The position numbers and the translations under genes are program-made. The notes below the pieces were generated by a model. The model had not been told where the DNA came from and did no database searches. It saw only the letters and a program-made list of their open reading frames with translations. This document shows, piece by piece, positions 506-25,172 of a stretch of 64,000 nucleotides of DNA (positions within the stretch are counted from its first letter, which is position 1; each line of letters starts with the position of its first letter). The DNA is from Zygnema cylindricum. Taxonomy: Eukaryota > Streptophyta > Zygnematophyceae > Zygnematales > Zygnemataceae. The stretch is from assembly GCA_037447655.1 (NCBI GenBank), contig JBBHKE010001803.1:83200-147199 (forward strand), given 5' to 3'.

Positions 506-1555
506 TGAAACTCTAAGACCTCCATAAGTCCTCAGAGTGGACAGCTTCCAAGAAGCCTATAGGATAATCCTGACCCCTTTGTGTTTAAGCAAAAATAACT
601 GCCACCCTGGCAAACAAAAACTCTGACCAACTTCACCCCTATGAAGACAAGACTCCCCTGAGTCGATAGCAAAAATAATCTCTGAATTTGCTCCCCTGAG
701 CAGTAAGTTATGGAGGGTCAAAGTTGACCTTTTGTACAGAAGCTCTCTGGGAGAGGGGGTCCTATCTTCTAATTTTTCTAAGTCCTTTCTCTCTCACAGA
801 CTCTATCTACTGATGTACGGAACCAATCATAATTGAGTTCCGTACGCAAAAGTACAGCTGCCGGTGTACTTTATGTACGGACATTGTACGACATGGCCAA
901 AATGTCGACACATGTCAAATCCGGATTCGGTGCCATAATCTCCGGAGATTCCACAATCCAACGGAATTTTGCCACGCGTCATCCGATGTGGCGATGGCCA
1001 CAAGCCGCCGAAATCTTCCTCCGCGATCTCAGCGCTAATCCTGGCCGTCCGATTAAATTCGGCTTTAATCGTAGCCGTAATAAATACATGCGCGGTATTT
1101 GTTTCATTTACGAAACAAATGCGCGGTACTGATTTGTGTCCGTACCATAAGTCGTACATTTATATATTACTGGATCTATATATCCCGTAATTCATTTCAG
1201 TTAAATGGTTTATCGCACGTATACGTATTTAAATAACTATCAAACTATATGCTACGTAACACTACCGCTAGACTTAACGGCTAAGGCTACCGGCTAATTC
1301 TTGTCTGACGGCCGGTAGGTACAAGGATCAAATCCTGCCGCCGGCACATACCTTTTAATTAAATAAATAAACCCTAATATAAAATTCCCGTAAACCTCAG
1401 GATAGCCAAGGTAGCCATGGCTCTAGCTTCCTCTCCAATTTCTCAGTGACTGCGACAAGTTTGAGAGTTGGAGAGAGAAGTTAGAGATAGACTGCCTCGA
1501 CTTCTATATTTCTTTTCAGACCTAGAAAATACTAATAAAACCATTAGTTTCTACA
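506..1555 (-). repeat. Copia family-B LTR, isolated, minus strand
   Basis: A complete LTR of about 1050 bp that begins TGTAGAAACTAATGG and ends GAGTTTCA on the minus strand. It is nearly the same as the LTR at 2779-3826 (both share the variant start and the GAAGTCGAG variant), so the two form a subfamily distinct from the LTRs of B1 and B2. No internal region is attached. Flanking pentamers are gagtt and tgcat, so there is no target-site duplication, which points to recombination or deletion after insertion. It interrupts a gag-like reading frame. The antisense strand of the LTR contains a tRNA-like box followed by TTTT near 1325-1355. Confidence 0.85.
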
Positions 1556-1898
1556 TGCATTTCCTCTCTCTCTTTTTGTCTTCGAGACACTTTAGGTGGA
1601 GAGTTTTTTTGTGGCTCTTTAATCGGCACCGATTGGACTACTTTGGCACATCTAGCCTGGATTCCACCAATTCGAATCTGATTTTGATATGAAAATTCAA
1701 GGTTTTTGATGTGACAACGATACACAAAGTGGCCGGTCTGTTTGCAGTGTGTACAGGTCGCAGATTTATCTGGACACATCTGAGCATCGTGCCTGGTTTT
1801 GCCACATCAGAAACAAATCCGATTCGATGGTTGATTTGGTGGGGTTCCCATGGCTAAGACCCTTGGTGGCCGATTATTTGGCCCCAAGCTACGAGGAT
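1556..1898 (-). pseudogene. gag fragment with two CCHC zinc knuckles
   Basis: On the minus strand a frame reads two adjacent CCHC boxes: the first, CGKTRHDAQMC preceded by CF and an in-frame stop between the two cysteines, and the second, CTHCKQTGHFVYRC, intact. The spacing CX2CX4HX4C is the nucleic-acid-binding knuckle of retrotransposon Gag proteins. A basic tail follows (SRRQKEREE) and the frame then runs into the copia LTR at 1555. The lower-coordinate fragment 1-505 probably continues the same protein. The boundary with the truncated LTR at 1899 is abrupt, with no duplication. Confidence 0.65.
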
Positions 1899-2511
1899 TT
1901 CGTGAACATCTCGCACGAAAACAAATGAATCGGACATTTGTTTTGACGACGGATATTTAATGTCGGATTTAATTTGACGGTGTATATCACTGCCGAGATC
2001 GCAGAATGGTCACTATGGCGTTTATCGACGTGGCGTGAAATGGCGCCACGTGGAGGGATGACATTTGGTCGCAGGAATTCCGGCGAACATAAGGACAAGT
2101 TAAAAGTGGACACGCGTCCACTTAATGGCGTTGCAATACTTAGGCCGTATAGAAAGTGCATCGGCCATAGTACTTTTCTGTACCCTACAATGTTTTGATC
2201 GGTTCGTACTTCAATAGATTGGGGTTGTGAGAGGGTTTTGGGACTTGGAGAATTTGGTAGATAGGTACCTCTCTCCCTTTGAGAGTTTGTATAAACTTGG
2301 CATTTTTGCCGACTCATAACTTATCGGCTGGTTGGCCGTTTTTAGTGATTCTTTTTGCTATGGACTGAGGGGAGTCCACGTTGCACAGGGGTGCTGTCAA
2401 ATTGTCAGTTTGCCTTCTTGGACAGCAGTGGTTGTTGCTTGAAGTGGGTTAGTTAAATACTATCTAGAGGCTTCTTGTATTCCGTAGTGTAATTGAGGAC
2501 ACAGAATTGCA
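1899..2511 (+). repeat. 5' LTR of element A, first part missing
   Basis: Matches the last 613 bp of the 3' LTR (9671-10283) at equal length and ends in the same GAATTGCA / ATAATTGCA form. The left part of the LTR is absent; the sequence instead joins the gag zinc-knuckle fragment at about 1898. It differs from the 3' LTR by scattered substitutions, so the insertion is not recent. Confidence 0.85.
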
Positions 2512-2512
2512 C

Positions 2513-2522
2513 GTTATGGGCC
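2513..2522 (+). other. primer binding site, half tRNA-iMet type, element A
   Basis: GTTATGGGCC lies two bases after the LTR end. It is complementary to the anticodon loop and stem of plant-type initiator tRNA-Met (the GGCCCATAAC region), not to the tRNA 3' end. The ATG inside it (2516-2518), complementary to the CAU anticodon, is in frame with gag and is the likely start codon. Confidence 0.65.
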
Positions 2523-4484
2523 TATCCTCTAGGGTGTCGACCTTCAATGGATATTGGTTCATCTATTGGGAAGCCATGATGATGGGAGCTTTGTGCGAAA
2601 AACGATGCTGGGGTATCGTCAGTGGACAAGTGAAACGTCCCCCTTCGGGAACTCCACCAGGATTTGGAGGAGTAAGGTTTCATGCAGCAACGCCTGCCTC
2701 AGCGGAGGAGGTAGATGATGGGGACAACAGTGTGTCCGAAAAGGGGAAAGGGAAGGAGACACCTCTCACTCCTATTGCTGTAGAAACTAATGGTTTTATT
2801 AGTATTTTCTAGGTCTGAAAAGAAATATAGAAGTCGAGGCAGTCTATCTCTAACTTCTCTCTCCAACTCTCAAACTTGTCGCATACACTGAGAAATTGGA
2901 GAGGAAGCTAGAGCCATGGCTACCTTGGCTATCCTGAGGTTTACGGGAATTTTATTTTAGGGTTTATATATTTAATTAAAATGTATGTGCCGGCGGCAGG
3001 ATTGATCCTTGTACCTACCGGCCGGCAGGCAGGAAATAGCCGGTAGCCTTAGCCGTTTAGTCTAGCGGTAGTGTTACGTATCATATAGTTTGATATTTAT
3101 TTAAATATGTATACGTGCGATAAACCATTTAACTGAAATGAATTACGGGATACATAGATCCAGTAATATATAATGTACGACTTACGGTACGGACAAAAAT
3201 CAGTACCGCGCATTTGTTTCGTAAATGAAACAAATACCGCGCATGTATTTATTACGGCTACGATTAAAGCCGAATTTAATCGGACGGCCGGGATTAGCGC
3301 CGAGATCGCGGAGGAAGATTTCGGCGGTTTGTGGCCATCGCCACATCGGATGACGCGTGGCGAAATTCCGTTGGATTGTGGAATCTCCGGAGATTATGGC
3401 ACCGAATCCGGATTTGACATGTGTCGACATTTTGGCCATGTCGTACAATGTCCGTACATAAAGTACACCGGCAGCTGTACTTTTGCGTACGGAACTCAAT
3501 TCTGATTGGTTCCGTACATCAGTAGATAGAGTCTGTGAGAGAGATAGGACTTAGAAAAATTAGAAGATAGGACCCCCACTCCCAGAGAGCTTCTGTACAA
3601 AAGGTCAACTTTGACCCTCCATAACTTACTGCTCAGGGGAGCAAATTCAGAGATTCTTTTTGCTATCGACTCAGGGGAGTCTTGTCTTCACAGGGGTGAA
3701 GTTGGTCAGAGATTTTGTCAGCCAGGGTGGCAGTTATTGTTGCTTAAACACAAAGGGGTCAGGATTATCCTAGAGGCTTCTTGGAAGCTGTCCACTCTGA
3801 GGACTTATGGAGGTCTCAGAGTTTCAATTGCCACAGTACCAGGAGCGACGACCGTGAAGACCGCGGAAAACGATACTCAAATGTGGGAGGATGTAAACAT
3901 GGCTGCCAAGAACTTAATTTTGAGGCACCTCACTCAAGCTTTGGCCACTCATCTTCACATTTACAAGGCCGAGGAGTTGTGGGTGAGTTTGGTGGAGATT
4001 TATAGAGCTGGAACTATTCAGGAGCTCCAGTTGGTTGAGCAAAAGATAGTGAGTTACACTTACAAAGGCGGAAAGATGTTAGATTAGTGTAATGATCTTT
4101 CTTGTTTGTATATGGAGATAGAAAGTGCCGGGTGGACAAGTACAATGAAAATGAAAGTTAACACTCTTATCATGAAGTTACCATATGAGTTCGAGAACAT
4201 AGTGTATCGAGTACAGGAAATGCTTGATAGTTTACGGAAATGGAACACAGTGGTTAGGATGATACTTGTGCAGGAAAACACAATGGAGATTAGGAGAGGA
4301 GGAAAGAGCATTCAAGCTCTAGCAGCAGGGGGCGACCGATGGGGGAAGGACTCAAAGAAACTGTACAAAGGGGAAAGAGATACTTCATTAGGACCGAGGC
4401 CCCCAAAGGGTCTTTGTCATTTTTGCAAAAAGTCGAGACACTTCATCGCAGATTGTGTCAGGCTGTCAGAGCTGAGGCTCTAAG
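2516..4484 (+). pseudogene. element A gag, split by a solo LTR
   Basis: Reading starts at the ATG in the primer site (MGLSSRVSTFNG), runs to 2778, is interrupted by the solo LTR 2779-3826 plus one copy of its 5-bp duplication, and resumes in frame at 3832. The N-terminal FNG...YWE block is the usual copia UBN2/gag start and aligns with the gag genes of B1 and B2. An in-frame TAG at 4085-4087 replaces a sense codon present in B1. A CCHC box, CHFCKKSRHFIADC, lies near the end (about 4414-4455). TAA at 4482-4484 closes the frame, and pol lies in another frame. Role when intact: nucleocapsid-like particle protein. Confidence 0.85.
2779..3826 (+). repeat. solo LTR, family B, with 5-bp duplication
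   Basis: Complete LTR from TGTAGAAACTAATGG to GAGTTTCA. It is flanked on both sides by attgc (2774-2778 and 3827-3831), and the gag of element A reads on across the empty site, so this is a solo LTR left by LTR-LTR recombination after insertion into element A. Nearly identical to the inverted LTR at 506-1555. The antisense tRNA-like box lies around 2985-3075. Confidence 0.95.
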
Positions 4485-4528
4485 ACAACTGTGGAGGGGG
4501 TTCTTTTGGAGGGAAGAAAAAGGCACTT

Positions 4529-5695
4529 GTGGTTACAAAAGTGACAGGAGAAACCGAGGATGGGGAGCTTCTTCTTGACGAGTGTCTGGAGGCGAAGGAG
4601 ATCCCTCGGAGACAGAAGTGTGCCCTTGGAGCAATTCGGGAAGCTCCACAAGAAGGATGGATCATCGACTCAGGTGCATCCATGCATATGTGTCGTGATA
4701 AGGAACTCTTCACTAAGCTAAGAAAGATCCTTACTGTAGAGATAGACTATGGGGATGGGAGAGTGGTTACTACATATCTAGTGGGATTAGTAGATCTCAA
4801 AGTCTTAGTGGAGAGTAAAAATTATATACTTACATTCTCAGATGTACTCTACATTCCTCAACTGAGTAAAAATCTTGTCTTTACGTCTGTGTTAAATAAC
4901 AAAGAGTTTGATACCTTCACTAGAAATGGAGTCTTTACAGCTAAGTATGGGGATGAAGTTTACTTCACGGCAGATAAGGGTAGCCAAGGAATGATTAGGC
5001 TTAACCTGAGTAATGAAAAGAAGAATGCTTACTATGTTGGTGTTCCTAAGTTGATGATTTGGCATAAGCGGTTGGGGCATGTTCATTTTGATAGGTCGAG
5101 GGAATTGAAAAAGCTTGGGGTAGTAGAATGCATTCAATTTGGGGATAATGAAATGATGGATGATTGTAGTGGCTGTGCTTAAGGTAAGGCTCACAGACTT
5201 CCCTTTCCAAAAGCCGCCACATATAGAGGTGAGAAAGTATTAGATTTGGTCCACACAGATATTTGGGGACTTGCAAAAGTACCTTCGGTTGGAGGAAAGA
5301 AGTTTATGAAGACAATAACCGATGACTGGTCTAGATACTCTAGAGTATACTTTCTAAAAACAAAGTTTCAAGCATCAACTTACTTCAAAGAATATAAAGC
5401 ATGGAGTGAGAAGCTGCATGAAACCCCCATTAAGAGGATAAGGAGTGATAATGGGGGGGAATATACCTCTAACCAGTTTGAGGAATATATGAGAGATGAG
5501 GGAGTGCAGCACCAGAAAACTATACCATATAACCTGGAACAAAATAAGGTAGCTGAGAGGTTGAATAGAACACTAGGAGATAGTGCATGCAGTATGTTGG
5601 CCGACAAGAAAATAGGAAAGAGATTTTGGGCAGAAGCAATGAACTGTGCCAACTACATTAAGAATAAAGTCCTTACCTCAGCTGTAAAGGAGTGA
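4529..5695 (+). pseudogene. element A protease and integrase
   Basis: Aspartic protease signature IIDSGASMHMC at about 4660-4694, then the integrase zinc-binding region (WHKRLGHVHFD ... CSGCA, about 5060-5180) and the integrase core with VHTDIWG, RSDNGGEY and VAERLNRT carrying the D, D and E of the DD35E triad. An in-frame TAA at 5180-5182 stands where B1 and B2 have CAA. A further frame change occurs at the end, where TGA closes the frame and the next block starts at 5692. Family: copia pol; acts in the virus-like particle and at integration. Confidence 0.9.
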
Positions 5696-7821
5696 CACCT
5701 TATGAGAGATGGGTTGGAAGGAAACCACATATCTCACACCTTAAAGTATTCGGGAGCCAAGTTTACAGTCTTGAAACAGATAGGAAAAACTGTAAACTAG
5801 ATGTTAAGGGAAAACCTGGATACTTTTTGGGATATGATGAGGATGTTAAGGGATATAGAGTCTATGACTTATCAAAGAAAGATATCATTCTGGTCAAACA
5901 CTTAGTTGTCATGGATGAAGGGAAGTCATTTGACCCCTTCAAATATAGAAAGAAGATAAGAATCAGATTTGAGTCTGAAAGTGAGGAGAACTCGGTCGTT
6001 CCCGAAAGTGACATAAGTGAAACCATGATTGCAGATTCAGGGGAGATCAGAGATACTGGAGACTCACCGGAAATATCACATACCCCTATGGACTTCGAGG
6101 AGATAGAAGATGTGGGACCAGAACCGACTTCTATGAACAAGGGAGCCGATGAGACTATGAGGAGAAATCCAAGACTTCCATCCATTCCAGCTTCCGAGTT
6201 TGAGGGAGGGAGAAAGAGCAACAAAATGTTACAGGAAAAACAGGTCACTCTTAAGGTAACTAAGCTATCTCACCCAGATGAGCCTGAGTCTTACTCAGAG
6301 GTAGTAAATAGTCTCGAGAAAGAAAGATGGATTAGTGCCATAAATGATGAGACGACCTCTATCATGGAAAAAAATACTTGGGAACTAGCGGATTGTCCTC
6401 CTGACAAAAAACCTATTGTGTGTAAATGGGTATTTAAATTAAAACTGAACCCAGATAATACCATTGAGAGATATAAGGCTCGATTGGTAGCGAAAGGGTT
6501 CACCCAAAAAGAGGGGATTGACTATGAGGAGACCTTTGCTCCTGTTGTTCGGTTCCCATCAGTAAGGATTCTCCTCAGTGTGGCAGCAGCGGAAGACATG
6601 GAAATACACTAGATGGACATTAAGACTGATTTTCTTAATGGTGAGTTAGAGGAAGAAATTTTCATGAGGTAACCCGTGGGGTTCGTGGAAGAAGGAGAAG
6701 AGAGCAAAGTCTGTAGGCTCATAAAGTCCTTATATGGACTGAAGCAGGATCCTCGACAGTGGAATAAGAAACTAGATGAGTTTCTCACCTGTCTGGGATA
6801 TATCCGGATCAGCTCAGACTATTCTATCTATATGTTTGAAGATGAGAATGGTGTCATTTTTATTGCAATTTATATGGATGATCTGTTTGTGTGAAGTAAG
6901 TCTTTGGAGAAGATCAATAGGCTAAAGAAAGATCTTAGGGGCAGATTTGATATGAAGGATTAAGGGGAGGCAAAATATATTTTTAGGACCTAAATGGAGA
7001 GAGATAGGGGGAAGAAGATTATCAGAATTACTCAGAAAGAAGCAATAGGAAATATTAGTGTTGGGTATCGAGGACCCTTTGCCGATATTCGATAAATATC
7101 GAATTTCAAGTACCCGATAATCGATATATCGCTTCGATATATCGAAAACCAAATTATCGCGATATATCGGTGATATATCGCCGATATATCGAGCCATAAA
7201 AAACTGAAATTTCCATTTTTTTTACCCCCCCCCCACGCCCCGGCTCGGTGAAGTAATATCCGTAAGATTTTCCGTACTATGACTGTACGAACACCCATTT
7301 TTTTGCGATATATATCGCGATAATTTATGTTGGTCCTGGTACGATATATCGAGGAATCTGCTCGATCGATATTCGATATATCGAATATCGCAATTATCGC
7401 GATATGAATTTACCTGATACCTAACACTAGGAAATATGCTTGAGAAATTCCAGATGGAAAATACTAACAGTTGTACCACTCCCATGGACTTGAAAAAAGT
7501 AAGTGATGGGAGTGTAGAAGGAGGAGTGATGATCTTAGATGAACAGATGAGCCCACAGGGGAGAGAATTTATGAAGTCTATCTCCTATAAACAGGTTGTA
7601 GGAAGTTTATTCTATTTCATGAATTGTACCAGGTCGGACATAGCGACAGCAGTTGGAGTACTCAGTAGGAGTCTTAATGATCCTAGGAAGAGAGACTGGG
7701 AGGCATCCAAGAGAGTCATGAGATATCTGGTGGGAACTAGAGAGTTATGGTTGTGATTGGGAGGGGAGCACACTAACATCACTACTTGGAGTGATGCCAG
7801 TTATGAGGACGCACCTTTGAG
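5692..7821 (+). pseudogene. element A integrase tail and reverse transcriptase
   Basis: Begins with the conserved TPYERWVGRKP integrase tail, then an acidic linker, then RT from CKWVFKLKLNPDNTIERYK through the KARLVAKGF block and the catalytic IYMDDLFV (about 6865-6890; copia elements usually have YVDD). In-frame stops at 6610-6612 (TAG for CAG), 6670-6672 (TAA for CAA), about 6892, about 6961 and about 6991 (TAA for CAA). A 374-bp MITE interrupts at 7056-7429, after which the frame resumes with MLEKFQMENTNSCTTPM. The C-terminal part ends at the solo LTR at 7822 within the SDASY RNase H segment. Confidence 0.9.
7056..7429. mobile_element. hAT-like MITE rich in CGATATATCG
   Basis: Starts TAGTGTTGGGTATC and ends with the near-complement GATACCTAACACTA. 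It is flanked by a perfect 8-bp duplication ggaaatat (7048-7055 and 7430-7437) and interrupts the RT of element A, whose frame reads across the empty site. An 8-bp duplication with TAGTGTTGGG ends suits the hAT superfamily. The interior is mostly overlapping palindromes of CGATATATCG type plus a C-run. No ORF for a transposase. A second, inverted copy is at 56512-56971. Confidence 0.85.
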
Positions 7822-8827
7822 TGCAATTCTGTGTCCTCCATTGGACCACAGAATACAGGAAGCCTCTAGATAGTATTTAACTAACCCACTTTAAGCCACA
7901 ACCACTGCTGCCCAAGAAGGCAAACTGACAATTTGACTGCACCCCTGTGTAGCCTGGACTCCCTTGAGTCCGTAGCAAAAAGAATCACTGAAAACGGCCA
8001 ACCAGCCGATAAGTTATGAGCCGGCAAAAATGCCAATTTATACAAGGCTCTCTTAGAGAGAGAGAGGTGTCTATCTACCAAAATTTCCTAAGTCCTAAAT
8101 CTCTCTCACAACCCCTATCTACTAAAGTACGAACCAATCATATTACTGTAAAGTACAGAAAGGTACTACGGCCGATGTCCTTTCTGTACGGCCGGTGTAC
8201 GACAAGGCTACTGAGTGGACCCGTGTCATTTTTCCACTCGTTCGTATATTCTCCAGAATTTTCGCGACCGAATGTCATCCTTCCACGCGGCGCCACGTCA
8301 TGCCACGTCCATATAATCCAAAGTGACCATTCCGCGATCTCGGCGATGACGTGCGCCGTCGGATTAAATCGGACATTAAATGTCGACCGTTTAAACAAAG
8401 GTCCGTTTCATTTGTTTCGTGCGAAATGACGTTCGCACTAAACCTTAACAGGTTCTATGTTCGTTTCGTCCATATTCAGTTAAATCATTTCAGTGTAATA
8501 CAATAATTTAAATATAAATGAAACCCTATATCATCTAACGGACTTCTACGACAGACTGGTTAGAGCTAACGGCTACGCCGCGCTCTATCGGTCGGGGGTT
8601 CGAGTCCTGCCGGACTCAACCTTTTGTTGAGAGTGACGTAAGTCACTCTTTAGTCCTTCCTATGGAGCTGAGGCAGCCATGGCTCCATCGCTCTTTCTCT
8701 CCTTCAGTGACTACAATAAGTATCGGGGAAAGAGAGAAGAGATGGAGGCAGGCTGCCATCATTTTCTATATATGTTTCCGCTAATTTATTTTAGACCTAG
8801 AAAATACAAAAACTACTTATTTCAACA
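7822..8827 (-). repeat. solo LTR, family A, minus strand
   Basis: Full-length LTR of 1006 bp, the reverse of 9278-10283. It begins TGCAATTCTGTG on the plus strand and ends TTTCAACA. Flanks are ttgag (7817-7821) and atgag (8828-8832), a 5-bp duplication with one mismatch. It splits the RNase H of element A. Its plus strand carries a tRNA-like segment with GGTTAGAGC (A-box-like) and GGTTCGAGTCC (a consensus B box) at about 8558-8610, followed by TTTT. Confidence 0.9.
8558..8625 (+). other. tRNA-like A box/B box segment inside LTR
   Basis: CTGGTTAGAGC and GGGTTCGAGTCC are spaced roughly as Pol III internal promoter boxes, and the segment is followed by CCTTTTG. It does not fold into a full cloverleaf by eye: the acceptor stem is missing. 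It is antisense to the LTR and recurs in diverged form in LTR families B and D. Not called as a tRNA gene. Confidence 0.35.
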
Positions 8828-9264
8828 ATGAGAAGATGCACTTCTAGGTATGTGTTGTATGTTGGGGAAGGTGTTTGCTGTTGGAGCAGTAAGCAACAAA
8901 AGGTTGTTGCTCATCTACTATGGAGGCTGAGTACATGGCCTGTTGTTCTGCTATGAAAGAGTTGATGTGGGTCAAGTCCTTGCTGCAAGAACTGGGGTAT
9001 ATGAAGGAGGGAGTGCATGAAGTGTTTTGTGATAATCAAGCTGCCATTGCAATTGCAGCTAATCCAAAACATCATTTTAAGGCTAATCATATGGACATAA
9101 GATTAAGTTTTGTAAGAGAAAAAGTTGAGAATAAAATCGTGAATCTTGTATATAGATCTGATGAGGAAAAGGTAGCTGATATGATGACAAAACCGGTGCC
9201 TTCTTCCAAGTTAAAATATTGCAGAGAAAAATGTGGATTAAAACTGAAATTTAAATTTGACTAG
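8828..9264 (+). pseudogene. element A RNase H, C-terminal part
   Basis: After the solo LTR the copia RNase H resumes with RCTS...YVLYVGEG (frameshifted near 8900) and then MEAEYMACCSAMKELMWVKS, VFCDNQAAIAIA, KHHFKANHMDIRLSFVRE and VADMMTKPVPSSKL, and stops at TAG 9262-9264. These are the standard copia RNase H blocks, closely matching B1 and B2. Directly downstream is the purine-rich tract AGAAAATAAGGGGAG and the 3' LTR. Confidence 0.9.
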
Positions 9265-9277
9265 AAAATAAGGGGAG

Positions 9278-10283
9278 TGTTGAAATTATTAGTTATATAT
9301 GGTATTTTCTAGGTCTAAATTTAGTAGAAATAGTAAAAGGAAAAAGGCGGACAACCTGTCTCCACCTCCTCTCTCTACCCACCATACTTGTCGTTGTCAC
9401 TAAGGATAGAGAGGGTGGCTGAGCCATGGCTGTCCTAGCTTAAGCTGGCAGGGCTAAAGAGTGACTTATGTCACTCTCAAATAAAGGTTGAGTCCAGCAG
9501 GACTTGAACCTCCGACCGGCAGAGCGCGGAGTAGCCGTTAGCTCTAGCCAGTCTGTCGTAGATGTCCGTTAAGATACATTAAGTTTGATATATATTTAAA
9601 CAGTGTTACGACCATGAATTCGATTAACAGAATGACAAACGAAGGAACATAGAACAAATTATTATATAGTGCGAACATTATCTCGCACGAAAACAAATGA
9701 ATCCGACATTTGTTTTGACGGCGGACATTTAATGTCTGATTTAATCGGACGGTGTATATCACTGCCGAGATCGCGGAATGTTCACTTTGGCGTTTATGGA
9801 CGTGGCATGAAATGGCGCCACGTGGAGGGATGACATTTGGTCGCAGGAATTCCGGCGAACATAAGGACAAGTTAGAAGTGGACAGGCGTCCACTTAATGG
9901 GGTTGACGTACTCAGGCCGTATAGAAAGTACATCGGCCATAGTACTTTTCTATACCCTACAGTGATCTGATTGGTTCGTACTTCAATAGATAGGGGTTGT
10001 GAGAGGGATTTATGACTTAGAGAATTTGGTAGATAGGTACCTCTCTCCCTTTGAGAGTTTGTATAAACTTGGCATTTTTGCCGACTCATAACTTATCGGC
10101 TGGTTGGCCGTTTTCAGTGATTCTTTTTGCTACGGACTGAGGGGAGTCCAGGCTGCACAAGGGTGCTGTCAAATTGTCAGTTTGCCTTCTTTGACAGCAA
10201 TGGTTGTGGCTTGAAGTGGGTTAGTTAAATAGTATCTAGAGGCTTCCTGTATTCTGTAGTCCAATGGAGGACATATAATTGCA
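9278..10283 (+). repeat. 3' LTR of element A
   Basis: Starts TGTTGAAATTATTAG right after the purine tract and ends ATATAATTGCA; 1006 bp, the same length as the solo copy at 7822-8827. Its right neighbour is the gypsy-type protease frame, which starts at once (gac ccg-like codon DP), showing that element A sits within the gypsy-type element. Confidence 0.9.
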
Positions 10284-10745
10284 GACCCACACATCTGTTT
10301 TCTAGATAATGGGAAACGGGCATTTTCACTCAATGGTGTCACACCGTCATTAACACTTATGGACACCGGTGCAAAACTAGTTATTTTGGGGTCATCTTTT
10401 TCACTAAAACTAGGTGTGATAGTTGATAATCTTCAGTCCACCACAACACGCCTACTCACCTCAACGGGAACCACCGAACTAGTTTTGGGCATTACAAAGG
10501 ATCCACTCTGTTTTAGGTTTCAAAATGGTACAGAATCTGATTTTGCAGAAGTCCTTGCTCACGCATTGGTCATTAATTGTAGTGACTACTAATGTTTAGT
10601 GGGGCAAGATGTGATTTTCAGAGTAAGAGTCGGCGTTGACATGTACGATCAAAAATTTTTCTACTGTCGAACCGATTATCCGGAAAAGAAAATGTGTCTC
10701 CCTCTAATTTCCACACGACAACCCTTACTGATTATTGCTCACGCT
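10284..10745 (+). pseudogene. gypsy-type aspartic protease
   Basis: The open frame from 10284 contains LTLMDTGAKLVILGSSF (DTGA active site, about 10359), then DFAEVLAHALVINCSDY, a TAA at about 10590, and in the same frame LVGQDVIFRVRVGVDMYD, the usual LLGxDFL-like close of a Ty3/gypsy protease domain. A second stop lies at about 10749. The N-terminus is cut off by element A. In this family the protease releases Gag and Pol products in the particle. Order here (protease, methyltransferase, RT) is unusual because of the methyltransferase between them. Confidence 0.75.
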
Positions 10746-11058
10746 GCCTAATCTGTCCCAGCTTATTCCGGAAATTCGGTGGGATTTGAAATTTTTTCAT
10801 TCTCTATCGGCAGCTACCCGATAGTCCCTCTTTGACTGAACTTTTTGATAATCCAGGTTTTATTCTTGATTCCTGCGAGTTTGATTACATTTACAAACAC
10901 GCACATCATATTCTTTTATTGCGAGTTCCACCTCGTCCTCTCATCTTAGTAGATCCTTCCGGTTTTCTTCCCATTAATTAGAAACCAATTCAGCTCAACC
11001 CTCATCAAGATGGTGTGGTCATTTCAGATCTATTCCCACGCATGGGTACCTCTCTACT
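10746..11058 (+). pseudogene. linker and start of DNA cytosine methyltransferase (motif I)
   Basis: After about 90 bp of unclear frame, an open stretch from about 10836 reads ELFDNPGFILDSCEFDYIYK, VPPRPLILVDPSGFLPIN, a stop, then HQDGVVISDLFPRMGTSL at about 11000-11058. DLFPRMG is motif I, the SAM-binding DLFxGxG loop of C5-methyltransferases, with one glycine replaced. The frame is cut by copia element B1 at 11059 and continues at 17512 after one copy of the duplicated ctact. Confidence 0.7.
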
Positions 11059-12105
11059 TGAAACTCTGAGACCTCCATAAGTCCTCAGAGTGGACAGCTT
11101 CCAATAAGCCTCTAGGATAATCTTGACCCCTTTGTGTTTAAGCAAAAAGTTCTGCCACCCTGGCAGACAAATACTCCAACCACCTTCACCCATGTGAAGG
11201 CAAGACTCCCCTGAGTCGATAGCAAAAAGAATCTCTGAATTTGCTCCTCTGAGCAGTAAGTTATGGAGGGTCAAAGTTGACCTTTTGTACAGAAGCTCTC
11301 TGGGAGAGAGGGTCCTATCTTCTAATTTTTCTAAGTCCTATCTCTCTTACAGACTCTATCTACTGATGTACGGAACCAATCAGAATTGAGTTCCGTACGA
11401 AAAAGTACAGCTGCCGGTGTACTTTATATACGGACATTGTACGACATGGCCTAAATGTCCACACGTGGAATATCCGGATTCGCTCCTTTAATCCTCGGAG
11501 ATGCCGCGCTCCAATGTAACATTGCCACGTGTCATCCGATGTGGCGATGCCCACAAACCGCCGAATTCTTCTTCCGCGATCTCGACGCTAATTCAGGCCG
11601 TCCGATTAAACTCGCATTTGATCGTAGCCGTAATAAATACATGCGCGGTATTTGTTTCGCTTACGAAATCAATGCGCGGTATTGATTTCTTATCCGTACC
11701 GCAATTCGTACTTTTACACTACCATATCTATGTATCCCGTTAACAGTTATAGTTAAATGATTTATCCTACGTGTACATGTTTAAATCATTATCGTACTAT
11801 ATACTATGTAAGACTACTTCTAGACTTAACGGCTAAGGCTACCGGCTATCTACTCTCTGACGGCCGGCAGGTACCAGGATCAAATCCTGTCGCCGGCACA
11901 TACCTTTTAGTAATTAATCCCTTGACTAATATAAATTTCCCGTAAACCTCAGGATAGCCTAGGTAGCCATGGCTCTAGCTTCCTCTCCAATTTCTCAGTG
12001 ACTGCGACAAGTTTGAGAGTTGGAGAGAGAAGTTAGAGGTAGACTGCCTCGGCTTCTTTATTTCTATTCAGACCTAGAAAATACTTAAAAACCATTAATT
12101 TCTCA
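11059..12105 (-). repeat. 3' LTR of B1
   Basis: Opens TGAAACTCTGAGACC on the plus strand and closes TTTCTCA, two bases short of the TTTCTACA form at the other end. Next to it is CTCCCCTTATTTTCT, the purine tract read in reverse. It differs from the 5' LTR at a modest number of positions. Confidence 0.92.
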
Positions 12106-12118
12106 CTCCCCTTATTTT

Positions 12119-12959
12119 CTAGTCAATCTTTAATTTCAGACCACACTTCTCCCTGCAGAAAATTAGCTTAGGGGAAGGCACAGGTTTGGTCATCATATCT
12201 TCTACCATCTCACTATCTGGTCGGTACTCTAAACTGATTATTTTATTTTCTACTTTCTCTCTAACAAAGCTGAGTCTAATGTCCATATGTTTGGCTTTAA
12301 AATGATGTTTTAAGATTGGCAGAAATAGCAATTGCTGCCTGATTATCACAAAATATTTTCTGCACACCACTCTTAAGATGACCAAGTTCACCAAGTAAAG
12401 ACTTGACCCACATCAATTCTTTTACAGCAGAGCAAGAGGCCATATACTCAGCCTCCATGGTGGACTGAGCAATAACCTTTTGCTGTTTGCTACTCCAACA
12501 GCAAGCCCCATCACCCACATATAATACATATCCAGAAGTGCATCTCCTCATCGGAGCATCACCATAACTAGCATCACTCCAAGTAGTGATGTCAGTATTC
12601 TCCCCACCCAAATGCAACCATAGATCCCTAGTTCCTATCAAGTATCTAAGAACTCTCTTAGCTGCCTTCCAATCCCTCTTAGTGGGAGCATTTAGAATTT
12701 TACTCAGCACTCCTACAGCTGCAGCTAAATCTGGCCGGGTACAATTCATAAAATAGATTAGACTTCCCACTACTTGCCTGTAAGGAATAGTCTGCATGAA
12801 CTTCTGTTCTTCAGGAGATAATTCCTCGTCTAAGACTATGACTCCTTCTTCCTCACTCCCCTCACTTCCCTTCTTCAATTCCATTGGAGTTGTACAACTA
12901 TTAGCTTTATCCATTTGAAATTTTTCAAGCATGTTCTCTATTGCTTCCTTTTGAGTCAA
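12119..12959 (-). pseudogene. B1 RT C-terminus and RNase H
   Basis: Two overlapping minus-strand frames. The first (12959-12297) holds MLEKFQMDKANSCTTPMELK, the YFMNCTRPDLAAAVGVLSK block, TWSDASYGDAPMRRCTSGY, SSKQQKVIAQSTMEAEYMAS and IFCDNQAAIAIS. A frameshift near 12312 moves to the second (12394-12119), which carries HHFKAKHMDIRLSFVRE and MTKPVPSPKL. These are copia RNase H blocks; the catalytic acidic residues are present. Upstream, TGA at 12978-12980 replaces the CGA found in B2. Confidence 0.9.
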
Positions 12960-12977
12960 TCTTATAATTTTTCTTTT

Positions 12978-14411
12978 TCAGTCTCTCTCTACTTGAATTC
13001 CCAAAATATATTTTGCTTCCCCCATATCCTTCATTTCAAATCTCCCCTTAAGATCGGTTTTCAGTTTATTAATTTTTTCCATTGATTTACTTAAAACAAG
13101 CAAATCATCAACATAAATTGCAATAAATATATAACCTTCCTCATCTTCGAAACCATATATTGAGTGATCTGAGCTGATCCTGATATATCCCAGACCGGTA
13201 AGAAACTCATCAAGCTTCTTATTCCACTGTCGAGGCGCCTGTTTCAAACCATAAAGAGATTTAATCAGCCGGCATACCTTACTCTCCTCTCCTTCTCCCA
13301 CAAACCCTTCGGGTTGTCGCATGAAGATCTCATCTTCCAATTCTCCATGCAAAAAGGCTGTTTTGATGTCCATCTGGTGCACTTCCATGTCTTCCGGTGC
13401 TGCCAGGCTGAGAAGTATGCGGACGGAGGGAAATCTGACCACCGGAGCAAAGGTTTCCTCGTAGTCAATTCCCTCCTTTTGTGTAAATCCCTTTGCCACT
13501 AGTCGGGCCTTGTAGCGCTCGATTGTGTTATCTGGGTTCAGTTTTAATTTGAAAACCCACTTACAATCGATTAGTTTTCGGTTAGGTGGACAATCCACCA
13601 GCTCCGAAGTATCGGCTGCCATAATTGAGGCCATCTCTTCATTGATGGCTGTCTTCCACCGATTTCTTTCTGGACAAGTCATCGCCTCTCCATAAGTTTG
13701 AGGTTCATCTTGGTGAGATAGTATAGTTACCTTGTTATTAACCTGTTTTTCTTGCAGTCTTTTACTACTTCTCCTTCCCCCCTCAAAATCTGAGGCCGGA
13801 ATAGATGGTTCTCGTGGATTCTTTCGAACAAACTCAGTTTCTCCCCTATCCCTTGATTCCGAATCAATTTCCACCACGTCTTCCGCTTCGGGTAGAGTTG
13901 TCACTGGAGTTTCCACAGCCGAGTCCTTTTCAGTCTGATTTGTACCTGCAAGAATGTCATCGTCTCTAAAACCTGGATAGTTAGGAAGCTCAAAGTCATC
14001 AGAATTTTCTGACTCAAATCTGATTTTTACTGACTTCGTATATTTGAAGGGATCCACAGACTTTCCTTCATCCATAACTACTAGATGTTTTACTAAGATT
14101 ATATCTTCCCTTTTTAGATCATAAACTCTATATCCTTTAACATCTTCATCATATCCTAATAAGTATCCTGGTTTTCCTTTAGGATCTAGCTTCCAATTAG
14201 ACCGATCTGTATATAGACTAAATACTTGACTGCCGAAAACCTTTAAGTGAGATATGTCTGGTTTCCGGCCTGTCCATCTCTCATAAGGTGTTTGATCTTT
14301 TATAGCTGAAGTAAGAACTCTATTCTTGAGATAATTAGCACAGTTCATGGCTTCTGCCCACAAATATTTTTCATATCTTTTTATCTGACAACATACTTCT
14401 AGCACTATCAC
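12978..14411 (-). pseudogene. B1 integrase tail and reverse transcriptase
   Basis: Reads WAEAMNCANYLKNRVLTSA, TPYERWTGRKPDISHLKVFG (integrase tail), KGKPGYLLGYDEDVKGYR, an acidic linker, then RT with CKWVFKLKLNPDNTIERYK, KARLVAKGFTQKEGIDYEE, FAPVVRFPSVRILL, MDIKTAFLHGELEDEI, LYGLKQAPRQWNKKLDEF and the catalytic IAIYVDDLLVL. The most complete copia RT of the window. It ends at a TGA (12978-12980) just after ILGIQVERD. The frame overlaps the upstream block by about 40 bp, which implies one frameshift near 14380. Confidence 0.93.
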
Positions 14412-15552
14412 TTAGTGTTCTATTTAACCTTTCAGGTACCCCATTTTGTTCCGGATTTTCTGGAACTGTCTTTTGGTGTTGGACCCCATCTTCCCTCAGA
14501 AAAACCTCAAACTGGTTAGAAGTATACTCTCCACCATTGTCACTCCTTACTCTCTTGATTGGAGTTTCATGGAGTTTTTCGCTCCATGCTTTATATTGTC
14601 TAAAACAATCCTCAGCTTTTGACTTGTTTTTCAAAAAATACACTCGGGAATACCGAGACCAATCATCAGTTATAGTCATCATAAATCTCTTCCCCCCCGG
14701 TGAGCGCACTCTAGCCGGTCCCCAAATATCTGTGTGTACTAGATCTAGAAGTTTTTCTCCCTTGTTGATGGCTGATTTAGGAAAGGGTAATCTGTGTGCT
14801 TTACCTTGAGCACACCCACTACAATCATTTATATCATCACTCTCACTGAACTGAATCCCTTCCACCACTCCCATCCTTTTCATCTCTCTTAACTTATCTA
14901 GATTCACATGCCCAAGCCTCTTATGCCACATCATAATATCATGAACACCAGCATAATAAAGTTTCTTCGTTTCATTACTTAAGATCAGCCTAAACATCCC
15001 ATGGCTACCTTTCTCAGCAATGAAATAGACATCCTCCTCAAAACTAGCAGTAAAGACTCCTTCCCTAGTGCTAGTGAAAAAACCCTTATCATCTAATACA
15101 GATGTAGAGATAAGGTTTTTGTTCAGCTCCGGAATAAACAATACATCGGAGAATGTTAATATGGATGTCTTTCCTTCTACTAACACTTTCAGATCTACCG
15201 ATCCTACAAGAGTAGTGGTGACTATCCTCCCATCCCCGTACTCTATCTCTACGGTGGGAATCTTTCTTATCTTAGTGAACAGGTGCCTATCCTTACACAT
15301 GTGCATTGAGGCACCTGAATCTATAATCCAGCTTGCTTCACCTTTCAATCCACCGTAAGCACATTTCTGCCTTCGTGGAATTTCAACCTCAGTTTTCGCC
15401 TCCAACTCCTCATCCAAAAAGAGCTCATCGTCCTCGTCCTCGGATTCCGCCTCAAGTACCTGTGTGACAAGGGCCTTTTTCTTTCCTCTCGGGGTACCAC
15501 CGGTCTGCCCCTCCTTTAACCGAAGCTCGGTTAGCTTAGTGCACTCTGCCAT
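14371..15552 (-). pseudogene. B1 gag end, protease and integrase core
   Basis: Begins in the gag tail (AECTKLTELRLKEG), then an acidic stretch, the protease site SWIIDSGASMHMC, the GAG-pre-integrase zinc region (MMWHKRLGHVNLD ... CSGCAQGKAHRLPFP) and the integrase core with LVHTDIWGPARV, KRVRSDNGGEYTSN and GVPERLNRTLSDSARSM (the triad D, D, E). It ends by frameshift at SDKKI. The purpose is proteolytic maturation and integration. Confidence 0.93.
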
Positions 15553-16454
15553 ATAGTGCCCCGGTTTCTTACAAAAATGACATAAACCTTTGGGAGCCCT
15601 TGGTTGAACTCGTCAACCTGTTTTTTCTGCTCCCTACCCCCATAGTTTCCGACTGGTTTCCGGGAATCCTTGTTCCTCCAATCGGTCACTGTTGCCAAGG
15701 CTTGGCCACTCTTTCCTCCCCTTCGGATCTCAATTGTATTCTCTCGAACGAGAATCATCCCTACCACTGAGTTCCATATCCACCTAGAGTCCGGCAAGTC
15801 CTCCACACGGTTGACTATGTTCTCGAAATCATCAGGTAACTTCATCAGTAAGCAGTTAACCTTTTATTTTTCACTAAAAACTTTCCCCGCACTCTCTAGC
15901 TCCATGAAGAGTGTAGCAAGCTCATTGCAAAAATCCAACATATTTCCCCCTTTGTATACATACTCCTTAACTTTCTGATCAGCCAACTGTTGTTGCTGAA
16001 TCGTACCACTTCGGTACATCTCTATGAGAGCCATCCAAAGATCGGATGCCCTTTCTACCTACAAATGAGGACATGCAAGTCCTTGAGTAAGATGGCGTAG
16101 GATGAAGTGCTTTGCCGCCATATTGTTGAAGTCCCAGGTTTCAGTATCATTCTCCTCGTTCCTCGGTATAGGTGACATGAATGCTAAACCAATTGCTATT
16201 GGTGTGGTCGCCTCCTTCTCCTTTCCTTTGTCCACCACCTCTCCTTCCTTTGTTTCCTCCGTTGAAGGTGAATCCTCTTTCCTGGTGAATCTGCTTCCTT
16301 TAAACCCTGGAGGAATTCCAAGAATTGATGGACGCCCCAATCGTCCACTCACTATCCCCCAAAACCTTTTTTCGCATAGAGCTCCTATCATCATACTTTC
16401 CCAGTATATGAAGCCAGTTCCATTAAAGATTGGTACCCTAGAGGGTGGGCCCAT
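15531..16454 (-). pseudogene. B1 gag
   Basis: Starts at the ATG in the primer site (16454-16452, MGPPSRVPIFNGTGF) or at an upstream in-frame ATG within the LTR (16478). It reads through NNMAAKHFILRHLTQGLACP to a TAG at 16059-16061 where B2 has CAG. It continues past that stop in the same alignment with a second stop near 15871, and finally KLPDDFENIVNRVEDL and MILVRENTIEIRRGGKS (15845-15531). The zinc knuckle region is disrupted by a frameshift near 15600. Confidence 0.88.
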
Positions 16455-16456
16455 AA
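16444..16456 (-). other. B1 primer binding site, half tRNA-iMet type
   Basis: On the minus strand TTATGGGCCCACC follows the LTR end with two intervening bases. Thirteen bases are complementary to the anticodon stem-loop of plant-type initiator tRNA-Met. The enclosed ATG is the proposed gag start. Confidence 0.75.
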
Positions 16457-16458
16457 TA

Positions 16459-17506
16459 TGAAACTCTGAGACCTCCATAAGTCCTCAGAGTGGATAGCTT
16501 CCAAGAAGTCTCTAGGATAATCCTGACCCCTTTGTGTTTAAGCAAAAATAGATGCCACCCTGGCTGAAAAATACTCTGACCACCTTCACCGTTGTGAAGG
16601 GAAGACTCCCCTGAGTCGATAGCAAAAAGAATCTTGGAATTTGCTCCCCTGAGCAGTAAGTTATGGAGGGTCAAAGTTGACTTTTTGTACAGAAGCTCTC
16701 TGGGAGAGAGGGTCCTATCTTCTAATTTTTCTAAGTCCTATCTCTCTCACAGACTCTATCTACTGATGTATGGAACCAATCAGAATAGAGTTCTGTACGC
16801 AAAATTACAGCTGCCGGTGTACTTTATGTACGGACATTGTATGACATGGCCTAAATGTCCACACGTGGAATATCCGGATTCGCTCCTTTAATCCTCGGAG
16901 ATGCCGCGCTCCAATGTAACATCGCCACGTGTCATCCGATGTGGCGATGCCCACAAACCGCCGAATTCTTCTTCCGCGATTTCGGCGTTAATTCCGGCCG
17001 TCCGATTAAACTCGCATTTGATCGTAGCCGTAATAAATACATGCGCGGTATTTGTTTCGCTTACGAAATCAATTCGCGGTATTGATTTCTTATCCGTACC
17101 GCAATTCGTACTTTTACACTACCATATCTATGTATCACGTTAACAGTTATAGTTAAATGATTTATCCTACGTGTACATGTTTAAATCGTTATCGTACTAT
17201 ATACTATGTAAGATTACTTCTAGACTTAACTGCTAAGGCTACTGGCTATCTACTCTTTGACGGTCGGTAGGTACCAAGATCAAATCCTGTCGCCGTCACA
17301 TACCTTTTAGTAATTAATCCCTTGACTAATATAAATTTCCCAGAAACCTCAGGCTAGCCTAGGTAGCCATGGCTCTAGCTTCCTTTCCAATTTCTCAGTG
17401 ACTGCGACAAGTTTGAGAGTTGGAGAGAGAAGTTAGAGGTAGACTGCCTCGGCTTCTTTATTTCTATTCAGACCTAGAAAATACTTAAAAACCATTAATT
17501 TCTACA
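16459..17506 (-). repeat. 5' LTR of B1
   Basis: 1048 bp, ending TTTCTACA on the plus strand, then the second copy of the ctact duplication. The antisense tRNA-like box around 17225-17305 is degraded compared with the other LTR (GATCAAATCC kept). Confidence 0.93.
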
Positions 17507-18480
17507 CTACTCTCATGCCTTCGCAATGAATTACTTATCACGTGCTACTACTCAGTCGAGATTGACATTTTAGCTCGAAAAGCCTAGACACATCACTTTA
17601 ATCTGTTACACGGACAATATCCACATCTTTTCCCCAAATCTGCCTTTGCTTACCTGCATTCTGCCCTACCTCAAGATATTCGTTTGATAGGCAATCAACA
17701 CCTTCTCGATGTGGAACCAATCGATCTTCTCTTTGCCGGTTCGGTGAATTTGGGAATGTCACGGGCAGGCAAAGGTCTCGGCTTAGCTGATCCTCGCACT
17801 AAATTATTTTTTGAATTACTTCGTATCATGAATTTTCTGCAATCTTTTGATCGACCATTAGGATATATTTTAGAAAACGTGTGAGCCTATAACGATCCTC
17901 GACCTATAGTATTAGCTGATTGCAAGAAGATAGAAGCGTTAATTGGCCCTCCTCTTATCATTGATGCAGCCGGTCACGGGTCCTTAGCTCATCGGTTTCG
18001 ATCTAAATGGACCAACTTGATTGATATTGGTCGCCTTAGAGAAGGGAATCTTTCTGTCATACCCCTTTTTACAGATATTTAGACAACACTTTTGCTTTTT
18101 CACAAAGTCTAAACATGTCTACAGCCTGATCACTCGCCGAATTACAACATTAACGTCTAAGGTCAACCATTTAAAGTTCTCCCCACTCCAGTGTCTTATC
18201 CACACTCTCACGCTTTCTCTAGTGATGGGCCCAGTCTACTCAGAAATATTTACACAGGCGGCCTAGATAAACCTACAGCCACAGAACGGGAACACCTTAT
18301 GTATTTTCTTCCCAACACTACGGTTGCCCATGGTCTCAAAGATCGACAACGCTGCATCCGTTTAGGTCTTGTCATGGACCTTGAATCTCTCTCATTTGTC
18401 TTAGGCCTCGGATTTGCACCAGGTCGTTACGCACAATCCCATCCATCTGAACTAGTTGGGGGGAGAGGATGCATCATTAA
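17507..18480 (+). pseudogene. DNMT3/DRM-like C5-cytosine methyltransferase in gypsy-type element
   Basis: Continues the frame cut at 11058. Motifs in order: II (CYYSVEIDILARKA, about 17530), III/IV (DLLFAGSVNLGMSRAGKGL, about 17725-17775), V (DPRTKLFFELLRI), VI (GYILENV, about 17862-17881), VIII (IDAAGHGSLAHRFRSKWTNL, about 17957-18017) and IX/X (TATEREHLMYFLPNTT, KDRQRCIRLG, about 18280-18370). The FFELLRI, ENV and AHR...WTNL blocks are those of DNMT3/DRM-type enzymes. The catalytic Pro-Cys expected after GS is missing: GS-V-NL looks like GS-PC-NL with one codon lost, so this copy is dead. Stops lie at about 17587, 17882 and 18079. In an intact element it would methylate DNA, perhaps its own cDNA. 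Confidence 0.8.
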
Positions 18481-19290
18481 TTTCTAAACACATACCTACA
18501 CGATCTCCTGTCACCCTTAGAGGGACACCTTCTCAATTTTTCCTCTTTCCATCCCCTATAAAACCTGGGACACCTTCTCAATTTTTCATGTTTCCATCCC
18601 GTATAAAACCTTCTCCAGATGTCACCCTATATGATTTCTTGAATCCTAGTCACATGTCATGGTCCATTCTGGCATGTGCTGCTGCCATATTTTCTCTCTC
18701 TATTCATATTTCAACACCTCCTCACTTAACTGCAGCCTTTACTACTCGCAGCAGGCAAAATTAGACAAACTCCTTAAAGGAAACACTGGTTCTTTACTCA
18801 TTATGTCAGTCACTTATTGATGATGAACAACTAGCTTTTGCACAAGCCATGGAAGCAATGACGATTAAAGGTTCGGAAACTCCTAAATGGAAATTTGGCT
18901 CTAATCTCTCTCAATCTGAACACGATCTACTGAACGAAGTGATTCTCCGGAATATTGACGCTTTTTCTTTCTCTATGAATGATATTGGTCGCCATACCAC
19001 GTATAAAATGTCTATAGATCTCGAAGATGATCGTCCCATTTTCAAGCCAAAACACCGCTTATCCGAAACGGAATGGGAATTAGTGGACCAACGCTGCGCT
19101 GAATGTGAGGAAGCTGGCCTCATTTATCGGCGGACTCTATTTTTGCAGCACCCACTGTCATGCCCCGGAAAAAAGATGCCGAAGGGAACTTTACCGATCG
19201 CCGGATGTGCGGCAATTACCGTGAAATCAATGCTAAAACTATACAAGATCAACATCGAATGCCATTGGTTAAAGAGGATTTATATTTTTT
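18481..19290 (+). pseudogene. gypsy-type reverse transcriptase, N-terminal part only
   Basis: Between about 18481 and 18780 the frame is weak and broken (a short duplication of CACCTTCTCAATTTTTC at about 18527 and 18571). From 18849 it reads NEVILRNIDAFSFSMNDIGR, IDLEDDRPIFKPKHRLSETE and ECEEAGLIYRR, the usual N-terminal RT lead-in of Ty3/gypsy Pol. After a frameshift near 19128 it reads APTVMPRKKD, RRMCGNYREINAKTIQDQHR and MPLVKEDL, the first RT blocks (CxDYRxLN-like). It stops at about 19290, before the catalytic YxDD, so the element is 3'-truncated. Confidence 0.8.
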
Positions 19291-20015
19291 TGTCTTTTTC
19301 CCTTGTCTTTTTCCTTAGTCAAATTGTCAGTTTTTTTCCCTGCAAGGCTTTTTCTGCCTTAGTTTGTTAAGCGCTTAGCTTTTCTATTTCCTCATTATGC
19401 TTTCATTGTAATCCCTACAAGTTAATTGACTCAGTTTCGGCCTAAGACAGCACGGTTTCCCTTCAACAACCTCTTTTAGTGTGGATTGTGCCTACTTTCT
19501 CAGGTAGTTTTTGAACCTTTGTGGATGCCTTTTGTGAATTAGTGTTTGAATTTGTCTTATCTAATTTTCGTTGCCTTGGTTGGAGTTTGCTTGTGGTTTG
19601 TTAGAATCTAGTTATCTTGGATTCTCTATAGCTTCCAATTTCTTGTTTTCTATTATTATTTTCTGCAATTGGTTATTAGTGTGTCAAAATCCGGTTTTCT
19701 CGAATTTTGTGCAGATTTTTAACGTTGCTTTCTTGTATTTTCTTCTTTCTATTTTTACTTGTTTGTTAGAATTCGGTTATTTCAGATTCTCTACATATTT
19801 TCATTGCTTGTTTTCTTGTTGTAATTTTTTGCAATCGGCGTGCCAAGATCTGGTTAGGATTCTCCACAGATTTTTATTGTTGTTTTCTTGCATTTTTCTG
19901 GTTTTGTTTTTTTTATTCGAAATCCTAGACCTAAATTTTGTAAGGAATATGCCGAGACCGTGGAGCCTAGTGGCTACCCATCGGCTTAGTATTCCTGTAC
20001 TCTCAAATTATTGAA
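19290..20015. repeat. T-rich stretch with a diverged two-unit tandem repeat
   Basis: Very T-rich on the plus strand. Two units of about 150-160 bp start TTTGTTAGAATC (about 19597) and TTTGTTAGAATT (about 19759). They share in order GATTCTCTA, TTGTTTTCT, TTTTTGCAAT-like, a G-T-C/T-C-A-A-like block and CAGATTTTTA. I see no gene in it; the long frame here is made of hydrophobic low-complexity residues. Confidence 0.5.
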
Positions 20016-24993: not shown

Positions 24994-25172
24994 TGTAGAA
25001 ATTAATGGTTTTAAAGTATTTTCTAGGTCTGAAAAGAAATAAAGAAGCCGAGGCAGTCTACCTCTAACTTCTCTCTCCAACTCTCAAACTTGTCGCAGTC
25101 ATTGAGAAATTGGAGAGGAAGCTAGAGCCATGGCTACCTAGGCTATCCTGAAGTTTACGGGAAATTTATATT
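24994..25172 (+). repeat. family-B LTR fragment
   Basis: The first about 180 bp of a family-B LTR (TGTAGAAATTAATGG to GGGAAATTTATATT), truncated on the right. It lies just past the 3' end of pstS copy 1, and the frameshifted pstS tail runs into it. Confidence 0.9.

Follow-up and report, generated by a model that had tools for sequence, protein, structure and literature searches.

A predicted DNMT3-type methyltransferase in a decayed gypsy-type retroelement of Zygnema cylindricum and in its relatives

We analysed a 64,000-nucleotide stretch of the genome of Zygnema cylindricum (assembly GCA_037447655.1, contig JBBHKE010001803.1, positions 83,200 to 147,199 of the forward strand; hereafter the window), in which an earlier note had described a gypsy-type retroelement carrying a cytosine DNA methyltransferase (DNMT) between its protease and its reverse transcriptase (RT). 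The locus sits in a genome of 352.8 Mb and 2,689 contigs, and the same genome was searched for relatives. The polyprotein of an uninterrupted relative (P0122, 2395 amino acids, locus L009) was used as a tblastn query against the window, and the features are listed in Table 1. Alignments with the relatives and a match to the Pfam family DNA_methylase confirmed the described arrangement, and in piecewise alignments the protease, the DNMT and the RT fell at the plus-strand positions given in the note. We consider it highly probable that the window contains a dead, twice-interrupted and partly inverted gypsy-type element, from a family whose polyprotein consists of gag, protease, a DNMT3-type methyltransferase, RT, RNase H, a DDE integrase and a PHD finger.

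The region 17588-17884 exceeded the cut-off of the Pfam DNA_methylase profile (E = 5.7e-6, 26.4 bits against a cut-off of 22), a search that the earlier note had proposed, and the region 17508-18760 scored 212 bits with a profile of the relatives made without the window sequence, compared with at most 5 bits in a codon-shuffle control of the window DNMT (n = 200). Motif I (11003-11050) was not significant by itself (domain E = 11); it occupies model positions 19-34, and the DNMT piece to the right of the copia-type insertion begins at model position 39, so that the register of the DNMT is continuous across the insertion. The protease region 10284-10592 matched Asp_protease_2 below the Pfam cut-off (E = 0.0023, 19 bits against 24.3), and the protease piece jointly with the next piece matched P0122 with E = 6e-72. 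Searched on its own, the RT piece matched no Pfam RT family; besides P0122, it aligned with the RT of the second group of polyproteins described below. The protease and the start of the RT are the only Ty3/gypsy domains surviving in the window. Through the protease, the DNMT and the RT start, the window was 84-85% identical at the DNA level to its nearest relative (C82, locus L015).

Copia-type elements are abundant throughout the window, and two of them interrupt this element. The one between motifs I and II, which had already been recognized, is surrounded by a perfect 5-bp duplication (CTACT at 11054-11058 and 17507-17511), and its two long terminal repeats (LTRs) are 95% identical. The earlier note had also placed the start of the gypsy-type element at position 10284, but this is the right edge of the second copia-type element, which ends at base 10283, and gag pieces lie further to the left on the minus strand. 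The duplication of the second copia-type element (GACCC) was found at 10284-10288 and, reverse-complemented, at 19-23. In a region to the left of the window (L035), gag residues 169-410 of P0122 are encoded on the plus strand, followed by the start of the 5' LTR of the second copia-type element (about 360 bp) in the reversed orientation. In C82, the gag and protease pieces that are separated in the window follow one another collinearly. The minus-strand gag pieces and the reversed LTR are explained by one inversion, from gag into the left LTR of the copia-type element, after its insertion, although an assembly error may alternatively have caused this arrangement. Separately, positions 765-938 and 1093-2292 of L035 represent another gag-bearing copy of the family to the left of the window's element, which also reaches a copia-type LTR.

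Table 1. Parts of the gypsy-type element and its insertions in the window
Feature	Position	Strand	Basis
Gag-to-protease linker (P0122 residues 529-695), inverted	18..522	-	tblastn, 3 pieces, 55-56% identity
Copia-type LTR, about 1,050 bp, inside the gag part	505..1555		Self-comparison, 97% to 3827-2779
Gag with CCHC knuckle region (P0122 residues 422-533), inverted	1558..1899	-	tblastn, 64% identity, E = 1.6e-38
Second copia-type element, between gag and protease, itself interrupted	1907..10283	+	Self-comparison, GACCC duplication
LTRs of the second copia-type element	1907-2512 (remainder of 5' LTR); 9278-10283 (3' LTR)
Aspartic protease (DTGA) and the linker after it	10287..10796	+	61% identity to P0122 residues 695-864
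N-terminal DNMT region up to motif I	10817..11058	+	56% identity to P0122 residues 874-958
Later copia-type element, inserted between DNMT motifs I and II	11059..17506	-	CTACT duplication
Predicted DNMT3-type methyltransferase, motifs II to X	17507..18463	+	Pfam DNA_methylase, profile of relatives, PDB matches, motif tables
Linker and N-terminal gypsy-type RT, ending at about 19287	18486..19285	+	P0122 residues 1277-1525, 56% and 75% identity, 2 pieces
Pieces like terminal repeat A and leader of the family	19350-19465 and 19932-20009 (in 19350..20009)	+	blastn with C829 and C1915, 73-83%

The DNMT of the window contains five in-frame stops within 17513-18484, and the catalytic triplet of its motif IV reads SVN, with Asn in the column of the catalytic Cys; the triplet is SEC in the nearest relative and WEC or WPC in most of the others. 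Because of this Asn, the five stops and the truncation of the RT, we regard the window copy as dead. Both the catalytic Cys and the open frame of an active C5-methyltransferase are absent from it, and the earlier suggestion that the element could have methylated DNA does not apply to this copy.

Relatives of the element are numerous in the same genome. A PF00145 search gave 123 matches, the best 123 of 782 candidates; with the window DNMT as the query, 125 rows were obtained, with 123 scored of 1,740 candidates. With one row for the window itself and two rows each for two copies, the latter search indicates at least about 122 other genomic places with a DNMT 57-83% identical to that of the window; among the matches listed, the closest full-length relatives were 79-82% identical. 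We fetched 20 regions, mostly picked for long open frames and therefore biased to good copies, and DNMT, RT and RNase H followed each other on the same strand in 17, with the integrase also present in 16 of the 17. The relatives keep the DNMT upstream of the RT, against the possibility named in the earlier note that intact relatives carry no methyltransferase between protease and RT. Two of the remaining regions had a DNMT without an RT, and one had no match at all. As a less biased control, we compared 150 RT matches (the best 150 of 3,414 candidates) with DNMT positions taken from all 125 rows of the window-DNMT search and from 19 of the 123 PF00145 rows picked by eye. A listed DNMT was found within 4 kb upstream of the RT in 66 of the 150 matches and only downstream in none. 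Counted from the DNMT rows, a listed RT lay downstream in 59 of 125 and only upstream in none, and none was listed for 66.

The single frame of L009 contains DNMT, RVT_1, RNaseH, integrase and PHD matches above the Pfam cut-offs, with CCHC and protease matches under them. In L012 and L013, too, the DNMT, RT, RNase H and integrase are in one frame, and the PHD matches reach 21.5 and 17.5 bits against a cut-off of 24. RVT_1, RT_RNaseH, Integrase_H2C2 and rve are present in all three, and the relatives thus have the order RT, RNase H, DDE integrase of Ty3/gypsy retroelements. No tyrosine recombinase family was found among the Pfam matches to E = 1 in the three polyprotein frames. A DIRS retroelement was therefore ruled out, given the presence of rve and Integrase_H2C2, this negative result and the 4-bp duplications at the ends of the elements.

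These ends were determined in three copies (C1344, C829 and C1915; L029-L034, L040 and L041), which were chosen for visible end repeats and extended past both ends. We had at first assumed plain LTRs, but no target duplications adjoined them, which led to a reading as split direct repeats; two plain identical LTRs were not seen in any of the three. All three copies have the plan A1, coding part, B1, A2, B2, with a terminal repeat A of 931-1475 bp that is 99.5-100% identical between the ends, outermost TG/CA ends, and flanking 4-bp target duplications (TTGG, AAGG and CCCT). Inverted repeats of at least 30 bp were not found in these copies. The repeats are thus arranged in a DIRS-like manner, in elements whose integrase is of the DDE type. 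The identity of the terminal repeats indicates recent insertion of the three copies, and the window copy is older, as judged from the more divergent LTRs of the copia-type element within its DNMT.

In a PDB search, DNMT3A, DNMT3B and DNMT3C ranked best for the element DNMT, whereas DRM2 aligned to the profile around motif IV only, and motifs I, II, IV, VI, VIII, IX and X occur in this order within one alignment. On these sequence comparisons, the element DNMT is classified as an unpermuted DNMT3-type enzyme. The earlier designation as DNMT3/DRM-like is therefore retained in its first half, and the DRM assignment is rejected, since the motifs are not rearranged and the best matches are DNMT3. 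The DNMT3-type catalytic core is shared with animal DNMT3A, 3B and 3C, which are cellular genes; plant DRM2, by contrast, is both cellular and rearranged (text of PMC5890265). A search of the genome with an animal DNMT3 fragment (best 150 of 483 candidates) reached at most 49 bits at 29-41% identity, and no cellular DNMT3 stood out, although a spliced host gene could escape this search. The catalytic Cys was present in 14 of 14 aligned DNMTs from the same genome. Among same-genome copies, the median dN/dS ratio (NG86) of the DNMT was 0.14 (range 0.085-0.405; 15 usable of 91 pairs), and the values for the RT and the integrase were 0.04 (12 of 105 pairs) and 0.20 (6 of 66 pairs); the pairs are few, share copies and are not independent, so that these values are rough, but they suggest that the DNMT is under purifying selection. 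The CpG ratio was 0.85 both in the DNMT and in the whole window, giving no clear signal of methylation.

Beyond this genome, the window DNMT as a protein query found nothing among short proteins and two relatives among polyprotein-sized candidates, and a scan of 105 stretches of viral contigs confirmed no relative. With the DNMT part of one polyprotein (P0001) as the query, and with scoring limited to the 7,991 candidates that had the most words in common with it, at least 192 proteins were matched and 120 were listed; with the addition of P0002, 121 proteins (P0001-P0121) were analysed, here called the RT-RNaseH-DNMT-integrase group. Both RT and DNMT were found in 92 of the 121, always in the order RT, RNase H, DNMT (92 of 92), with the integrase after the DNMT in 88 and absent in four; the other 29 had no RT. 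The source labels include two Haematococcus lacustris, one bacterial metagenome-assembled genome and some EukProt entries, most of the proteins being without an organism name, and no Klebsormidium name occurs among the 120 listed. The bacterial one is probably a mis-binned contig, and on the basis of the two Haematococcus names we tentatively take the group to be green-algal. In an alignment of 120 of the 121 (one was dropped for length), the catalytic Cys was present in 119, with one gap, and motif VI kept its Glu and Asn in all 120; in motif VIII, Arg, Trp and Asn were nearly invariant. At the position preceding the catalytic Cys, 60 of the sequences have Glu, 51 Pro, six Ser and two Ala, and one has a gap. 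On a tree of 65 rows (seven same-genome copies and 58 of the 120 polyproteins), Glu and non-Glu at this position required seven changes, at least five of which are forced by well-supported branches. A tree of 36 rows, of which 21 came from the 120 polyproteins and the others were the window and 14 same-genome copies, separated the same-genome copies from the RT-RNaseH-DNMT-integrase group with a support of 97/99 and paired the window with C82 (100/99); the same-genome copies formed two deep lineages, with EC in nine rows and PC in five.

The two groups share a related retroelement DNMT, a gypsy-type RT, a DDE integrase and a PF00628 PHD finger. They differ in the place of the DNMT, which lies after the RNase H and before the integrase in the RT-RNaseH-DNMT-integrase group and before the RT in the family of the window, and this difference is what two independent captures of a DNMT3 from a host, with the likeness arising by convergence, would explain. 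Distance ratios (between groups over within the RT-RNaseH-DNMT-integrase group; 74 of the 121 proteins, with four and three same-genome copies) were 1.4 for the DNMT, 1.2-1.28 for the RT and 1.06-1.08 for the integrase, and the higher value of the DNMT leans slightly toward separate histories. However, the DNMT distance between the groups (1.29) stays below the largest one found within a group (1.32), the window DNMT matched the retroelement DNMTs with E = 9e-41 and animal DNMT3 with about 1e-5 (the search sizes differ), and the PHD finger follows the integrase in both groups (101 of the 120 listed polyproteins, P0055 and P0036 among the examples, and L009). Two captures are thus unlikely in our judgement, if still to be reckoned with. 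A broader reading is that, throughout the green lineage, the gypsy-type elements of one superfamily, which have split repeats at their ends and a DDE integrase, combine a writer of the DNMT3 type with a PHD finger that reads H3; that the DNMT module was moved within pol, being located before the RT in this host, and perhaps in other streptophytes, and after the RNase H in chlorophytes; that the PC/EC loop switched several times; and that the elements of this host, as most of its DNMT3-type sequence, may be its main source of de novo methylation. The whole of this reading may well be wrong, and we offer it with reserve.

Precedents in charophytes and dinoflagellates, mentioned in the earlier note, are given in the text of PMC5890265. 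KnitGypsy-Dnmt3 of Klebsormidium nitens (de Mendoza et al. 2018; PMC5890265) is likewise an unrearranged, intronless Dnmt3-type DNMT in a gypsy Pol frame, with conserved key residues and purifying selection as here, in another genome; according to the legend of Figure 4 its domains are of gypsy type and its repeats DIRS-like, the latter as in three of three copies here, the comparison being with the text of the legend. SymbioDIRS-Dnmt3 of Symbiodinium shares a retroelement-borne Dnmt3-type DNMT and two sets of repeats at the ends, but it is a DIRS element with a tyrosine recombinase (PMC5890265), whereas the Zygnema elements have a DDE integrase and 4-bp duplications. PMC12344493 repeats the 2018 report on streptophytes and dinoflagellates, but its text says Copia where PMC5890265 says Gypsy. 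No further report of such DNMT-carrying elements was found in the portion of the open-access literature covered. A charophyte gypsy-type element with a Dnmt3 is a published kind, judged by the text of these sources, and the window copy is a further member. The position of the DNMT between protease and RT, the PHD finger, the duplications at the split repeats and the group with the DNMT after the RNase H do not appear in the published text consulted, figures and supplements apart, and the last-named group is perhaps less known. The main text of PMC5890265 mentions neither protease nor RVP.

The best matches of the PHD finger include PHF12, Lid, BAZ2B, WSTF and PHF21A (60 of 87 matches shown). 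Several of the matched families, among these and others, read unmodified H3K4, and animal DNMT3 enzymes read the same state by a PHD-like ADD domain. From this resemblance and the ADD analogy we propose a pairing of reader and writer, by which new DNA would arrive or be made methylated. The DNMT would be packaged together with the RT and the integrase and would methylate the newly made DNA of the element or its insertion site, and the PHD finger, being similar to readers of unmodified H3, would keep the integrase at unmarked chromatin. PHD finger and DNMT would thereby restore the combination of reader and writer that cellular DNMT3 has, and fresh copies would resemble DNA marked by the host. 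We put forward this mechanism tentatively, as somewhat short of an even chance. Several points weigh against this explanation. The ligand of the PHD finger is taken from what the named families bind. No listed DNMT was near 84 of the 150 RT matches, and copies free of a DNMT may be common. In half of the aligned polyproteins (60 of 120), and in the window's own lineage, Glu replaces the Pro before the catalytic Cys, and the DNMT is less constrained than the RT (0.14 against 0.04, from the few non-independent pairs). Finally, the Klebsormidium gypsy DNMT produced no detectable methylation in a yeast test, which its authors deem inconclusive (text of PMC5890265).

The DNMT may instead have been kept for another role, namely methylation of RNA, a scaffold that binds nucleic acids, or restraint of the element for the benefit of the host. 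The ideas of RNA and of host benefit were raised in the text of PMC5890265, and the repeated switch beside the catalytic Cys (at least five times) and the lack of detectable methylation by the Klebsormidium enzyme in yeast would fit such a role. However, the catalytic Cys, Glu-Asn in motif VI and three residues of motif VIII (Arg, Trp, Asn) are nearly invariant, which would be unnecessary in a pure scaffold, and we regard another role as unlikely, to about the same degree as two captures. That a host DNMT pseudogene or other fragments were joined by chance, the order being a local accident, can be dismissed as wildly improbable: two copia-type insertions and an inversion do disrupt the locus, but the order recurs in 17 of the 20 loci and in one uninterrupted polyprotein frame that includes the DNMT, contrary to the intron-bearing host pseudogene considered in the earlier note, and these relatives refute a chance joining with local rearrangement. 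The perfect 5-bp duplications at both insertions and the continuous similarity of the window to C82 also speak against it.

Elsewhere in the window, an open frame at 25155-26120 on the minus strand matched PBP_like_2 of the PBP superfamily (E = 2.7e-16), and this binding-protein-like gene is duplicated among the transposons (25174-25986 and 42014-42841, 88% identical). Rfam and tRNA scans gave no matches, and a plasmid search with the copia-type element of the window as the query gave none.

The finding concerns elements that carry the silencing enzyme of their host, and it raises the question of whether self-methylation hides, protects or restrains them. Many copies of varied age and two deep lineages are available in one genome, together with a related group in which the DNMT has another place, and this allows comparisons of selection, of position and of methylation state. 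The PHD family is at least nine-fold larger in Zygnema cf. cylindricum SAG 698-1a, according to the text of PMC9915684. If the host of the present elements is SAG 698-1a, this enlarged family may consist of element-borne PHD fingers.

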